From Armatimonadota bacterium (GTDB taxonomy: Bacteria > Armatimonadota > Fimbriimonadia > Fimbriimonadales > Fimbriimonadaceae): 64,000 nucleotides of DNA. Below, piece by piece: positions 48,551 through 53,890 of this stretch. Both the position numbers and the translations under genes were made by a program. The notes under the pieces were generated by a model. The model had not been told where the DNA came from, did no database searches, and worked only from the letters and a program-made list of their open reading frames with translations. The stretch spans positions 1 through 64,000 of the forward strand of contig JBAXHT010000003.1 of NCBI GenBank assembly GCA_037138755.1. Reading direction: 5' to 3'. The first letter of the stretch is position 1; the number at the start of each line of letters is the position of its first letter.

Positions 48551-51234
48551 CCGTCCGAGAGCTGCGCGAGAAATATCTGCGGTTTTTCGCCTCGAAGGGC
48601 CACATGATCCACGACTCTGGCTCGCTCATTCCCTACGACGTCACCGGACGCCTGGACGAGAGCCTCCTTTTCAACGGCGCGGGCATGGTGCAGTTCAAGC
48701 CCTACTTCCGAGGTGTCGCAACTCCGCCTCAAAAGCGGCTGACGACCGCCCAAAAGTGTGTGCGAACCGGTGACATCGACGAAGTTGGCGACGACAGCCA
48801 CCTCACCTTCTTCGAGATGCTCGGCAACTTCTCGTTCGGCGACTACTTTAAGAAGGAGGCCATCGATTACTCCTGGGAGTTCCTGACTTCCTCCGAATGG
48901 CTCGGCCTTGATCCGTCGCGGCTCTCTTTCACCGTCTTTGAAGATGATCAGGAAGCCTATGACTTCTGGTCCGCTCACCTCACCGCCGCCGGACTCGATC
49001 CCTCGGTCCGTATCTTTAAGCTCGGTGACGAAACAAACTACTGGCCCGCCGGCTCCTTCACCAAAGGTCCCCCCGGCCCCTGCGGCCCTAACTCCGAGAT
49101 GTTCTACTGGCAAGGCGCTGGCGATCCTCCGTCAGCCCCTTACACCACCGAAGACTGGTTGGCCGATGACGCCGCCAAGAACTGGCTGGAAATCTGGAAC
49201 GACGTCTTCATCCAATACGAGTGGCAGGGAACCGAGAGCGATAGCGGCTGGATCAAAACCGGCATGCCCAACCTCCCGTTCAACGGCATCGACACCGGAA
49301 TGGGCATCGAACGAACCGTCGCCGTCCTGAACGGCTACAAATCCGTCTACGACACCGACGCCTTTTCAGCGATCTTCGCCAAGTTGGACGAGCTTTGCTC
49401 CCCCTCTCCACAAGTGGAGAGGGGGTTGGGGGGTGAGGCAGTCACCGCCGCCCGCCGAATCATCGCCGACCACATCCGCACGGCCTGCTTCTGTATCGCC
49501 GACGGAATCCTTCCTGCCAACAACGGTCGAGGCTACGTCCTGCGCCGACTCATCCGCCGCGCTGTCCTCAAAGGCCAACGCACCCTCGGCTTCAACGACC
49601 TCTTCATGCACAACGTCGCCGACGCAGTGTTCGAGACCTTCGGTGGTCACTATAAGGAGCTCGCTGAACGAAAAGACATCATCGTAGAAACTCTCAAGAG
49701 CGAGGAAGAGCTGTTCCGACGCACTCTCAAACGAGGTTCTGAACTCCTCGAAGAAGCCATCTCGGATTTATCGGGCCAATCCGTCCTCTCCGGCCCCACG
49801 GCCTTCCAACTCTACGACACCTTCGGATTCCCCCTCGAAGTCACCCAAGAACTCTGCGCAGAGGCGGGAATCTCTGTCGACCTCGACGGCTTCAACCGAG
49901 CCATGCAGGAAGCCCAAGAGCGCAGCCGAGGCGCGCAGGGCGACAAGTCCGCCTACGGCGACCTTGAAGCCACCGAGGAACTCAAAACCGAAGACGCCCC
50001 TGACACCACCGAATTCCTCGGCTACTCCGCTACCGAGTCAGTGAGCAGTGTCACAAGAATCCGCCACACCGCCCCCGGCAAAGCCAAAGTTGCCCTCGAC
50101 CGAACCCCCTTCTACGCCGAAAGCGGCGGACAAACCGGCGACACTGGCATTATCGGTAGCTACCGCGTCACCAACACCACCAAAAGCGCAGGCATCTTCT
50201 GGCATGACATCGAAGGTGAGAACATGGAATGGCTCCTCGGAAACGACGTGGAAGTGCGAGTCGAAAGCCCACGCAGGAGCAAAACTCAGCGGCACCATAC
50301 CGCGACCCACCTCCTCCAAGCCGCCCTCCGTCACCACCTCGGAACCAGCGTGAACCAGGCGGGAAGCTATAACGGCCCCGACAACCTCCGCTTCGACTTC
50401 ACCCACGGCAAAGCCCTCTCCCAAGAAGAGATCGCTAAGGTTGAGCAAACGGTCAACGAAGAAATCCTCAAAAACACGACCGTAACAACCTACGCCGACC
50501 TCCCCATCGCCGAAGCGAAAGCCAAAGGCGCAATGGCCCTCTTCGGCGAAAAATACGGCGACAAAGTCCGCATGGTCGAGATCGGCGAGTTCAGCAAAGA
50601 GCTCTGCGGAGGAACCCACGTGCGCACCACCGGCGAAATCGGCCTCTTCAAAATTGTCAGCGAAAGCAGCGCCGCCAGCGGAGTCCGCCGAATCGAAGCC
50701 GTCTGCGGCGAGGCCGCGTACGCCCTCGTCAACCAGCAGCAGAGCGACCTCAAAGAAGCCGCCGCCCTCCTCAAGACGAACCCCAAAGAGATTGTCCAAG
50801 CCGTCGAAAAGACCCTTGAACAGCTCAAAGAAGAGCGCAAGAAGCGAGAGAAAGCCGAAATGGCCGCGATGAGTGGAGAAAGCACAAAGCAAGAAACCAC
50901 CAACATTAACGGCATCGAGCTCTGGGTGAAAAACTTCGGCGACGCCGACCAAAAGGTGGCGTCCCAAGCTATTGACAACGAGGCCAACGGGAAACCCGCC
51001 CAGGTGACCCTCGGAGCTGTCGTCGGCGAAAAGATCACGTTCATGTGCAAAGTCGGCCCCGACGCCCTAGCCAAGGGAGCCCATGCGGGGAACATCCTGC
51101 GCGAAGTCGCGAAGATCGCGGGTGGTGGTGGAGGCGGTCAAGCCGCGTTTGCAACCGCGGGTGGCCGAGACGCCACCAAAGTCGAAGAAGCCCTTAGCGC
51201 CGCCGCCGCGATCCTAACCGATCAGCTTTCCTAA
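48532..51234 (+). CDS. alaS: Alanine-tRNA ligase
   Basis: 900 residues. Class II catalytic domain (KYLRFFASKGHMIHDSGSLIP, RTGDIDEVGDDSHLTFFEMLGNFSFGDYF), editing domain with HHTATHLL and the zinc motif CGGTHV, and the Gly-rich C-terminal C-Ala domain (GGGGGGQAAF). Codons end mostly in C, unlike most genes upstream. Residues ~288-302 (CSPSPQVERGLGGEA) are encoded by a palindromic repeat inserted in frame. It starts inside the end of the last pilin-like gene. Confidence 0.96.
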   Translation: MSRPIVTVRELREKYLRFFASKGHMIHDSGSLIPYDVTGRLDESLLFNGAGMVQFKPYFRGVATPPQKRLTTAQKCVRTGDIDEVGDDSHLTFFEMLGNFSFGDYFKKEAIDYSWEFLTSSEWLGLDPSRLSFTVFEDDQEAYDFWSAHLTAAGLDPSVRIFKLGDETNYWPAGSFTKGPPGPCGPNSEMFYWQGAGDPPSAPYTTEDWLADDAAKNWLEIWNDVFIQYEWQGTESDSGWIKTGMPNLPFNGIDTGMGIERTVAVLNGYKSVYDTDAFSAIFAKLDELCSPSPQVERGLGGEAVTAARRIIADHIRTACFCIADGILPANNGRGYVLRRLIRRAVLKGQRTLGFNDLFMHNVADAVFETFGGHYKELAERKDIIVETLKSEEELFRRTLKRGSELLEEAISDLSGQSVLSGPTAFQLYDTFGFPLEVTQELCAEAGISVDLDGFNRAMQEAQERSRGAQGDKSAYGDLEATEELKTEDAPDTTEFLGYSATESVSSVTRIRHTAPGKAKVALDRTPFYAESGGQTGDTGIIGSYRVTNTTKSAGIFWHDIEGENMEWLLGNDVEVRVESPRRSKTQRHHTATHLLQAALRHHLGTSVNQAGSYNGPDNLRFDFTHGKALSQEEIAKVEQTVNEEILKNTTVTTYADLPIAEAKAKGAMALFGEKYGDKVRMVEIGEFSKELCGGTHVRTTGEIGLFKIVSESSAASGVRRIEAVCGEAAYALVNQQQSDLKEAAALLKTNPKEIVQAVEKTLEQLKEERKKREKAEMAAMSGESTKQETTNINGIELWVKNFGDADQKVASQAIDNEANGKPAQVTLGAVVGEKITFMCKVGPDALAKGAHAGNILREVAKIAGGGGGGQAAFATAGGRDATKVEEALSAAAAILTDQLS
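49397..49438. repeat. Palindromic repeat inside alaS
   Basis: CCCCCTCTCCAC (49400-49411), AA, GTGGAGAGGGGG (49414-49425), then TTGGGGGGTGAGG. A perfect 12-bp inverted repeat with a trailing GGGTGAGG tail resembles a palindromic repeat seen between genes of many bacteria. It adds about 14 codons without breaking the frame. Confidence 0.75.
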
Positions 51235-51574: not shown

Positions 51575-53890
51575 TTGCTACGAACCTTCCTTGCCTCCGT
51601 CTTCCGCGCCGCCTTGACCCAGCTCGTTGAGCAAGGCCGCCTGCCAAAGGAGGTTCTAGACGTTCGTATCGAAATTGCCGACCCCAAAAACCCCGATCAT
51701 GGCGACTTCGCCTGCAACATCGCCATGTCCGCGAGCAAGGTAGCCGGGAAGAACCCGCGCGAATTCGCCGAGTTGTTGGTGGAACCGCTGTCGACCTATC
51801 GAGGCGATGTGGCGTACTCGGAGAAAAGCGGTGTCGATAGCGATCCGATTGTGTCCGAGGATACGATCAGTTTCACAACGAAGACCATCATGTACGAGCT
51901 GTCCTACGAACTCTTCGACAAAATCGAAGTCGCTGGCCCCGGCTTCATAAACCTCACGCTGAACCCTGAGTACGTCGCCTCCCACGTCGGCGTCATCAAC
52001 GCCCTGGGTGAAGGTGACCTCGCCAAGCAGAGCCCGGTCGAGAACCCGCTCAAGATCAACGTCGAATTCGTCTCCGTCAACCCCAACGGCCCCATCACCA
52101 TCGGCTCCGGTCGAGGTGCCGCCTACGGCTCCACCCTCTGCAACATCTTCGAAGCCGCCGGTCACACCGTCCACCGCGAGTACTACATCAACGACGGCGT
52201 CAACTCGGAGCAGATGAGGCTATTCGCGGAGTCGGTGCGTGCGCTAGGTCGAGGTCAGGAGGTTCCAGAAAAGGGATACAAAGGTGATTATGTTCACGAA
52301 GTTGCCAAATCCCTAGCCGAGGTGAGTTTCGTGCAAAACGCTACGACCATCCACGAGATTGCTGGCTTCTGTGCATTCGCGATCGCGCAAACGTCGTCTC
52401 CCACAATCACCCTAGGTAAGTCCAAGAATGGCGAGTGGCTTCATCTTGGCGGGGCAGGATGGAGCCACGCTGGGCTGAGTTCGTTAGTCGATCAGCTGAC
52501 AATTGAATCTGCGCGAGGGTTCTTCAACCAGGTTGATCGCAAGCTAGGGTCCCTTGGAGTCGTTAAGGATGGCTTCTCTGGAGACGTCGAAGAGCGACAT
52601 GGCACTGATCCAGCCGCTCAGTGGTATGAATACTCCGTCCCACAGCACGTAGCAAACATCGGGTTGCAACGTGCTTCGGAACGTCTGATGATCGAGGCTC
52701 AGCGGTCTGCACTCGCGGCCTTCGGTGTCACCTACGACACCTGGTTCTCCGAGCAATCCCTCCACGACGTCGGAACCGTTGCCGACGAAATCAAATCTCT
52801 CGCCGCCAAAGGAATCGCCAACACCGACCCCACCCGGACCAAGCTCAAGTTAGCCAAAGGCGGAAAGATCGAGGATGTGATCATCGAATCCCAAACCGCC
52901 GATGTCGACGACGAAGGGGAAGTCCAGCAGGCCGAAGCCACCGCCGAAGGTGAAACCCTTTGGCTCCGCTCCACCAAGCTCGGCGACGACATGGACCGCG
53001 TCCTTCTCCGCAAAGACGGTCGCCTTACCTACATCGCCAGCGATGTTGCATATCACAAAGACAAGTTCAACCGCCCAGCCGGAGCGGACAAATTGATCAC
53101 CATCCTCGGCCCCGACCACCACGGCTACATCGGCCGCCTCACCGCCGTCGTCGCCGCCATGCTCCTGGAGCCAAGCGAACTCGGCGAGCCCTGCCCAGAC
53201 GAGTTCGACGCCAAGCTCTACCGCGACGAAAACGAGAAAGCCGCTTGCCAGAAGGCGCTGAAAGAAGCCCGCGAGAAACTAGAAGTCCAGATCTACCAAC
53301 TCGTCCGCTTCATGAAGGAAGGGAAGCCTGCCCCGATGCGAAAGCGGGACGGCAACATCTACGCCCTCATCGACCTCATGCGCGAAATAGGCGAGAAGCT
53401 AAAACCAGAAGGAACGGAGCAAGAAAAACTTGAGTCCGGCAAGGACGTTGCCCGCTTCTTCTATCTGATGCGCTCACACGACACCACGTTCGACTTCGAC
53501 CTCGACCTCGCCGAGAAGCAGTCCGACGAGAACCCTGTCTTCTACGTCCAGTACGCCCACGCCCGAATCTGCTCGATCCTCGAAAAAGCTGGCGAGCAAG
53601 GCGACGCCAACCTCGCGCTCCTCACCCACCCCAAAGAGAAAACCCTTATCAAGCGCATCGCCGACCTCCCCAACGAAGTCAGCCGCGCCGCCGAGGACTA
53701 CGGCGTCCACCGCCTCACCACCTACGCCATCGAGCTCGCCCGGGCTTTCCACGGCTTCTACGGCGATTGCAAAGTCATCTCCGAAGATGCCGCTTTGACC
53801 GCGGCCAGAGTTCAGCTTTGCGAGGCGACGAAGAAGGCGCTCAAAGAAACGCTCGATTTGCTTGGCGTCAGCGCTCCGGAGCGGATGTAA
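51575..53890 (+). CDS. argS: Arginine-tRNA ligase with insertions
   Basis: 771 residues against ~550-590 usual. TTG start. The recognisable core includes KIEVAGPGFINLTL, VEFVSVNPNGPITIGSGRGAAYGS, the DALRALV-like tail (HRLTTYAIELARAFHGFY) and a DALR anticodon domain. HIGH reads TIGS (175-178) and the KMSKS region reads PMRKRDG (from 588). Two extra segments, ~68-108 and roughly 250-375, have codon use unlike the C-ending core. The second holds WLHLGGAGWSHAGLSSLV and has no counterpart I know in ArgS. There is no second argS in the window. Confidence 0.88.
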   Translation: MLRTFLASVFRAALTQLVEQGRLPKEVLDVRIEIADPKNPDHGDFACNIAMSASKVAGKNPREFAELLVEPLSTYRGDVAYSEKSGVDSDPIVSEDTISFTTKTIMYELSYELFDKIEVAGPGFINLTLNPEYVASHVGVINALGEGDLAKQSPVENPLKINVEFVSVNPNGPITIGSGRGAAYGSTLCNIFEAAGHTVHREYYINDGVNSEQMRLFAESVRALGRGQEVPEKGYKGDYVHEVAKSLAEVSFVQNATTIHEIAGFCAFAIAQTSSPTITLGKSKNGEWLHLGGAGWSHAGLSSLVDQLTIESARGFFNQVDRKLGSLGVVKDGFSGDVEERHGTDPAAQWYEYSVPQHVANIGLQRASERLMIEAQRSALAAFGVTYDTWFSEQSLHDVGTVADEIKSLAAKGIANTDPTRTKLKLAKGGKIEDVIIESQTADVDDEGEVQQAEATAEGETLWLRSTKLGDDMDRVLLRKDGRLTYIASDVAYHKDKFNRPAGADKLITILGPDHHGYIGRLTAVVAAMLLEPSELGEPCPDEFDAKLYRDENEKAACQKALKEAREKLEVQIYQLVRFMKEGKPAPMRKRDGNIYALIDLMREIGEKLKPEGTEQEKLESGKDVARFFYLMRSHDTTFDFDLDLAEKQSDENPVFYVQYAHARICSILEKAGEQGDANLALLTHPKEKTLIKRIADLPNEVSRAAEDYGVHRLTTYAIELARAFHGFYGDCKVISEDAALTAARVQLCEATKKALKETLDLLGVSAPERM

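Follow-up and report, generated by a model that had tools for sequence, protein, structure and literature searches.

As essential enzymes, aminoacyl-tRNA synthetases tend to be well conserved, and a site in one of them that holds unrelated sequence in close relatives, swapped by recombination while the remainder is kept constant, would point either to an unrecognised selective pressure or to remarkable tolerance. Aminoacyl-tRNA synthetases such as ProRS have been named among the segmentally variable genes, which encode conserved enzymes whose conserved regions are separated by a variable stretch of 70 aa or more (Zheng, Roberts and Kasif 2004, PMC387263). RNA polymerase carries the BEAN/HABAS domains, which are ancient, related domain types (PMC11515920). 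Bacterial arginyl-tRNA synthetases (ArgRS) are represented by the TIGR00456 profile and by the solved structures 3fnr, 6ao8 and 5b63.

Here we analyse argS in a 64,000 nt stretch of a Fimbriimonadaceae genome (assembly GCA_037138755.1, contig JBAXHT010000003.1, positions 1 to 64,000, forward strand), referred to below as the window. Its product matches the bacterial ArgRS profile, shares their overall fold and has both the N-terminal and the DALR anticodon domain. It differs from them in that TIGS and PMRKRDG stand where HIGH and KMSKS are usual, that two sites (sites 1 and 2) carry orphan inserts, and that two further sites (3 and 4) show expansions, which are family-wide. The gene can be placed among the segmentally variable genes already described, as insert 2 adds a net 104 aa and the corresponding stretch spans 38–258 aa in the family; it differs from that class in that close relatives carry unrelated sequence there and a recombination tract is visible. 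With the BEAN/HABAS case it has in common that an essential enzyme of information processing has received domain insertions polyphyletically, but those in ArgS are of recent date and for the most part unrelated to one another. In the open literature that we searched, most subscription journals lying outside it, we found neither hypervariability or cassette-like turnover of ArgRS inserts nor the loss of HIGH, or the TIGS–MRKRDG state, in ArgRS of Fimbriimonadaceae.

The argS Gene and Its Catalytic Motifs

The open reading frame at 51575–53890 on the forward strand encodes 771 aa from a TTG start. The features discussed below are:

51575..53890, + strand: argS, arginyl-tRNA synthetase, 771 aa, TTG start; TIGR00456 335.9 bits; sole argS
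51791..51907, + strand: insert 1, residues ~73–111, N-terminal domain, net +36 aa; missing in G016 and G001
52097..52108, + strand: TIGS (175–178), HIGH position; state common to the family
52196..52318, + strand: 5′ flank of insert 2, residues 208–248, ordinary ArgS diverged from sister species (aa identity)
52319..52657, + strand: insert 2, residues ~249–361, orphan, at the site 2 hotspot, net +104 aa; no relatives found
52658..52729, + strand: 3′ flank of insert 2, residues 362–385, ordinary ArgS diverged from sister species (aa identity)
53336..53356, + strand: MRKRDGN (588–594), KMSKS position (PMRKRDGN 587–594); family-wide

The protein scored above the curated cut-off of the TIGR00456 profile (261.65 bits). 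Three Pfam domains matched in the order PF03485 (N-terminal, 69.3 bits), PF00750 (catalytic, 29.5 bits) and PF05746 (DALR, 122.3 bits), all above their cut-offs, the catalytic match being weak and broken. When an AlphaFold model was searched with Foldseek, the best 20 matches were all ArgRS, with 3fnr first (target-normalised TM 0.88). A search for a second argS, as proposed in the preliminary description, found none in the window's genome (3.27 Mb in 20 contigs, 97.35% complete). As the sole argS, the window gene presumably encodes a functional enzyme, the one arginyl-tRNA synthetase that this bacterium has, and formation of Arg-tRNA(Arg) is its expected activity.

The literal HIGH and KMSKS sequences are typical, HIGH of class I synthetases, and are not required by the profile. 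Both are absent, in agreement with the preliminary description, which had read TIGS (175–178) and PMRKRDG at these places; the latter occupies residues 587–593. The second lysine of the KMSKS position is retained as K590. HIGH is indeed lost, but as an old, family-wide state and not as a peculiarity of the window gene: among the Fimbriimonadaceae genomes examined, every main ArgS copy that could be read has NPNGP(I/V)T(I/V)GS, and MRKRDG wherever that region was readable. TIGS/MRKRDG is thus a property of Fimbriimonadaceae, and because it is old and family-wide the loss of HIGH is independent of the inserts. The other families of the same order retain HxGH or xLGH in the genomes sampled (IHLGH, IHVGH, LTLGH, LSLGH), together with MSKR, MKKR or similar. 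Departures from HIGH also occur in other ArgS (HMGN, SLGH, SVAH).

The ITIGS loop of the window ArgS resembles the ITIGN loop that is normal in TrpRS (signature TIGN), a different enzyme whose likeness is limited to this one short loop. By this analogy TIGS would be compatible with class I chemistry, with both histidines dispensable in principle. Fimbriimonadaceae may thus provide a natural example in which a class I synthetase, apparently present as the sole copy, does its work in the absence of both HIGH histidines. A second ArgS was seen in one other genome (L185, G053:C5:370200-373800); it reads ITVAAARGA (TVAA) in place of HIGH and retains MRKRDG. It may be contamination, since that metagenome-assembled genome (MAG) is 4% contaminated.

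Two Inserts Absent From Sister Species

The preliminary description had noted that argS is longer than usual. Indeed, the gene has 774 codons, compared with 634 in the sister species, the difference being due to in-frame gains of 36 and 104 aa. Both inserts are absent from the two very close sister species G016 and G001, which bears out the earlier view that they were added later and shows that insert 2 is recent. Residues 362–771 are 96% identical in amino acid sequence to G016 and 93% to G001. The second insert had been drawn at residues 209–383; the insert is real, but this range is too wide, as residues 208–248 and 362–385 are ordinary ArgS. These flanks are themselves diverged. Amino acid identity to G016 is 0.80 in the 5′ flank and 0.79 in the 3′ flank, while G016 and G001 share 0.98 and 0.92, respectively; at the nucleotide level identity to G016 is 0.71 and 0.75, vs. 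about 0.9 over most of argS. A few windows in the 3′ part of argS also drop to 0.70–0.77 nucleotide identity with G016.

Insert 2 looks coding, as it is stop-free in its own frame over 113 codons (p = 0.025, dinucleotide model) and has GC1, GC2 and GC3 of 0.62, 0.47 and 0.56. The other five frames contain 3–7 stops each. AlphaFold confidence was low (pLDDT about 31–53 in insert 2 and <50 at residues 81–109 in insert 1), and an insert of another family member (G098) modelled alone gave a mean pLDDT of 41; for this reason we make no claim about the fold of the inserts.

The segment is not shared across Armatimonadota: of 291 genomes searched in the phylum, only the one that carries insert 2 gave a match. 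GTDB species, scanned by pattern, yielded no relatives, nor did phages, plasmids, viral contigs or Pfam, and no relatives among defence systems were found. Nor did we find a donor allele, so that the insert's own recombination history is read from the diverged flanks only. Pfam contained no splicing family (intein or intron) matching insert 2, only a sub-threshold TSP3_bac hit (E 0.12), and there were no convincing repeats at the insert ends. An origin of the inserts within the genome itself was rejected, the longest DNA match being about 23 nt. A likeness of insert 2 to a segment of MFS transporters (L038, L040; 38–39% over 46–50 aa, E 0.0125–0.015 per genome over 113 genomes) was judged to be chance.

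The codon contrast noted earlier is real, with C3 at 0.31 in insert 2 and 0.56 in the argS core, but the odd side is the core. Elsewhere in the window, most genes have C3 of 0.22–0.50 and GC3 of 0.54–0.70, and argS and alaS are C-rich exceptions. Since the inserts match average window genes and it is the argS/alaS core that is unusual, codon use gives no sign of foreign origin, and we rejected the argument from codon use to such an origin. Its GC content is 0.552, that of the window 0.549. Across the family, insert GC3 was below that of the core in 19 of 22 insert-bearing ArgS (mean difference 0.16, Wilcoxon p = 0.0004). Some family inserts may be foreign, as insert GC lies below that of the surrounding locus in five genomes (G086, G095, G098, G101 and G079).

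Site 2 Is a Hotspot of Length Variation in the Family

Stretch lengths were compared in one alignment of 69 family ArgS and 58 others. Site 2 has a median length of 48 aa in the family (range 38–258, sd 48.5) vs. 80 aa in the others (range 48–93). The preliminary description knew of no ArgS counterpart of the segment; its position, however, coincides with this stretch, whose length varies from 48 to 93 aa in ordinary bacterial ArgS. As a control, the stretch between HIGH and YYIND is 24 aa in every family member (sd 0). Site 2 is at least 65 aa long in 20 of the 69 family ArgS, with about 18–210 extra aa, and on a tree of these 69 sequences, built from conserved columns, the long state must have changed at least 15 times.

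The site-2 inserts are mostly unrelated to one another, the clear related pairs being G079/G080 and G092/G093; a few short ones show weak mutual similarity. Unrelated inserts occur even in close relatives. The ArgS of G097 and G098 are ~96% identical in amino acid sequence over most of their length, yet at site 2 they have unrelated stretches, 153 and 258 aa long, respectively. The blocks adjoining site 2 in this pair drop to 0.35–0.60 amino acid identity.

In a control with CysS from the same genomes, the span differed by about 22 aa, except for one 35-aa insertion in G071. AlaS also varies in the family, the long linker expansions seen being low-complexity and repeat-like, and other ArgS and AlaS sites likewise acquire repeat-like sequence.

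Recombination and Selection at Site 2

The one clear tract came from G079 (L159) and G080 (L158), two closed and near-identical chromosomes. Their argS genes are mostly 93–100% identical at the nucleotide level, except for a sharply bounded tract at codons about 165–345, within which identity over codons about 180–345 is mostly 51–80%. Correspondingly, dS is about 0.8–1.55 in the tract vs. 0.1 elsewhere in argS. This is a homologous allele replacement centred on site 2. A second, short dip in identity lies at the repeat-like site 3, and AlaS also dips between the two genomes (0.78–0.83).

The dN/dS ratio at site 2 was 0.21 for G079/G080 and 0.38 for G092/G093, from which it follows that the shared inserts are constrained as proteins by purifying selection. 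With values below 1 there is no direct sign of positive selection.

Interpretation of the Variation

We favour, at a probability of roughly 0.55, the reading that the window gene is the only ArgRS, with anciently remodelled motifs, and that its site-2 loop is hypervariable, diversified at least partly through allele recombination, perhaps under selection by a binder. The catalytic motifs changed in an ancestor of the family, TIGS replacing HIGH and MRKRDG replacing KMSKS. Separately, within the insertion part of the catalytic domain, the presumably exposed loop at site 2 is hypervariable: it acquires, loses and exchanges translated segments that are unrelated and measure from tens of aa to about 200. 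On the favoured reading, alleles recombine homologously and so account for at least part of this turnover, the crossovers falling in the conserved blocks to either side. Insert 2 of the window and its diverged flanks would be one recent case, probably brought in by the same allele replacement. The diversification is perhaps selected, because site 2 would meet an inhibitor, toxin, phage protein or partner that itself changes; our best guess for the function is diversification directed at an inhibitor or partner. A more specific arms race, in which a putative inhibitor (toxin, phage protein or antibiotic) led to fixation of the altered active-site signature and to the swapping of surface cassettes by recombination, is speculative and somewhat doubtful. 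Several observations run against the favoured reading: the search for a donor allele of insert 2 found none, a few other argS stretches are also diverged from G016, dN/dS below 1 gives no direct sign of positive selection, and AlaS of the family has linker expansions as well, though repeat-like ones, and dips in identity between G079 and G080.

The main rival is that a surface loop accepts any in-frame segment and that ordinary recombination spreads the alleles, the inserts having no particular role. Such neutral tolerance is a tentative possibility, and it would account for the length variation of ordinary bacterial ArgS at site 2 (48–93 aa), the repeat-like gains at other ArgS and AlaS sites and the host-average codon use of insert 2. 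It sits less well with the purifying selection on shared inserts (dN/dS 0.21 and 0.38), with the swapping of unrelated sequence between close relatives, with a tract centred on site 2 and with the stability of CysS in the same genomes. The preliminary description had suggested instead that the inserts alter the binding of arginine or tRNA. They do lie within the N-terminal and catalytic domains of a sole ArgS; still, sister species whose C-terminal halves are 93–98% identical have neither insert, and other relatives carry unrelated sequence there while the substrates are the same. With the core enzyme unchanged between carriers and non-carriers, the suggestion is not upheld and appears improbable. 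Even less likely, insert 2 could be an intein, an intron or a translational bypass, an intervening element eliminated once the gene has been transcribed or translated. Its location inside an essential gene and its absence from sister species would suit such an element, but Pfam gave no splicing family, the frame is open with a coding-like base pattern, and the inserts of relatives are mutually unrelated and constrained as proteins. We give equally little credence to the gene being decayed or an artefact of assembly. An assembly of 20 contigs without a further argS would fit this, yet both inserts are in frame within a stop-free frame of 774 codons, and closed genomes, G079 and G080 among them, contain inserts of the same kind.

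Further Observations on argS and alaS in the Family

At 49399–49426 of the window, within alaS, lies a palindrome, CCCCTCTCCAC-AAG-TGGAGAGGGG, that is translated within SPSPQVERGLGGE. It is a repeat-like element in frame, and similar ones are present in argS and alaS of relatives.

The ArgS of one family member (L018, genome G022) contains an in-frame MshEN domain at site 4 (G022:C53:15656-16027, E 2.8e-19). Its closest relative within that genome is 70% identical and is part of the adjacent, divergently oriented gene, whose frame of 602 codons probably encodes a PilB/GspE-type ATPase. The sister genome G065, with a nearly identical ArgS, lacks the domain, which indicates that whole domains can enter ArgS in Fimbriimonadaceae.

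A search with TIGR00456 found no argS in four MAGs that are 87–94% complete (G010, G017, G056, G084), probably owing to missing contigs. In the complete genome of Uphvl-Ar1 (G094; L069 and L182), argS is spread across three frames and alaS across several, probably through sequencing errors. In G093 (L153), the ArgS open frame reaches 1341 codons.
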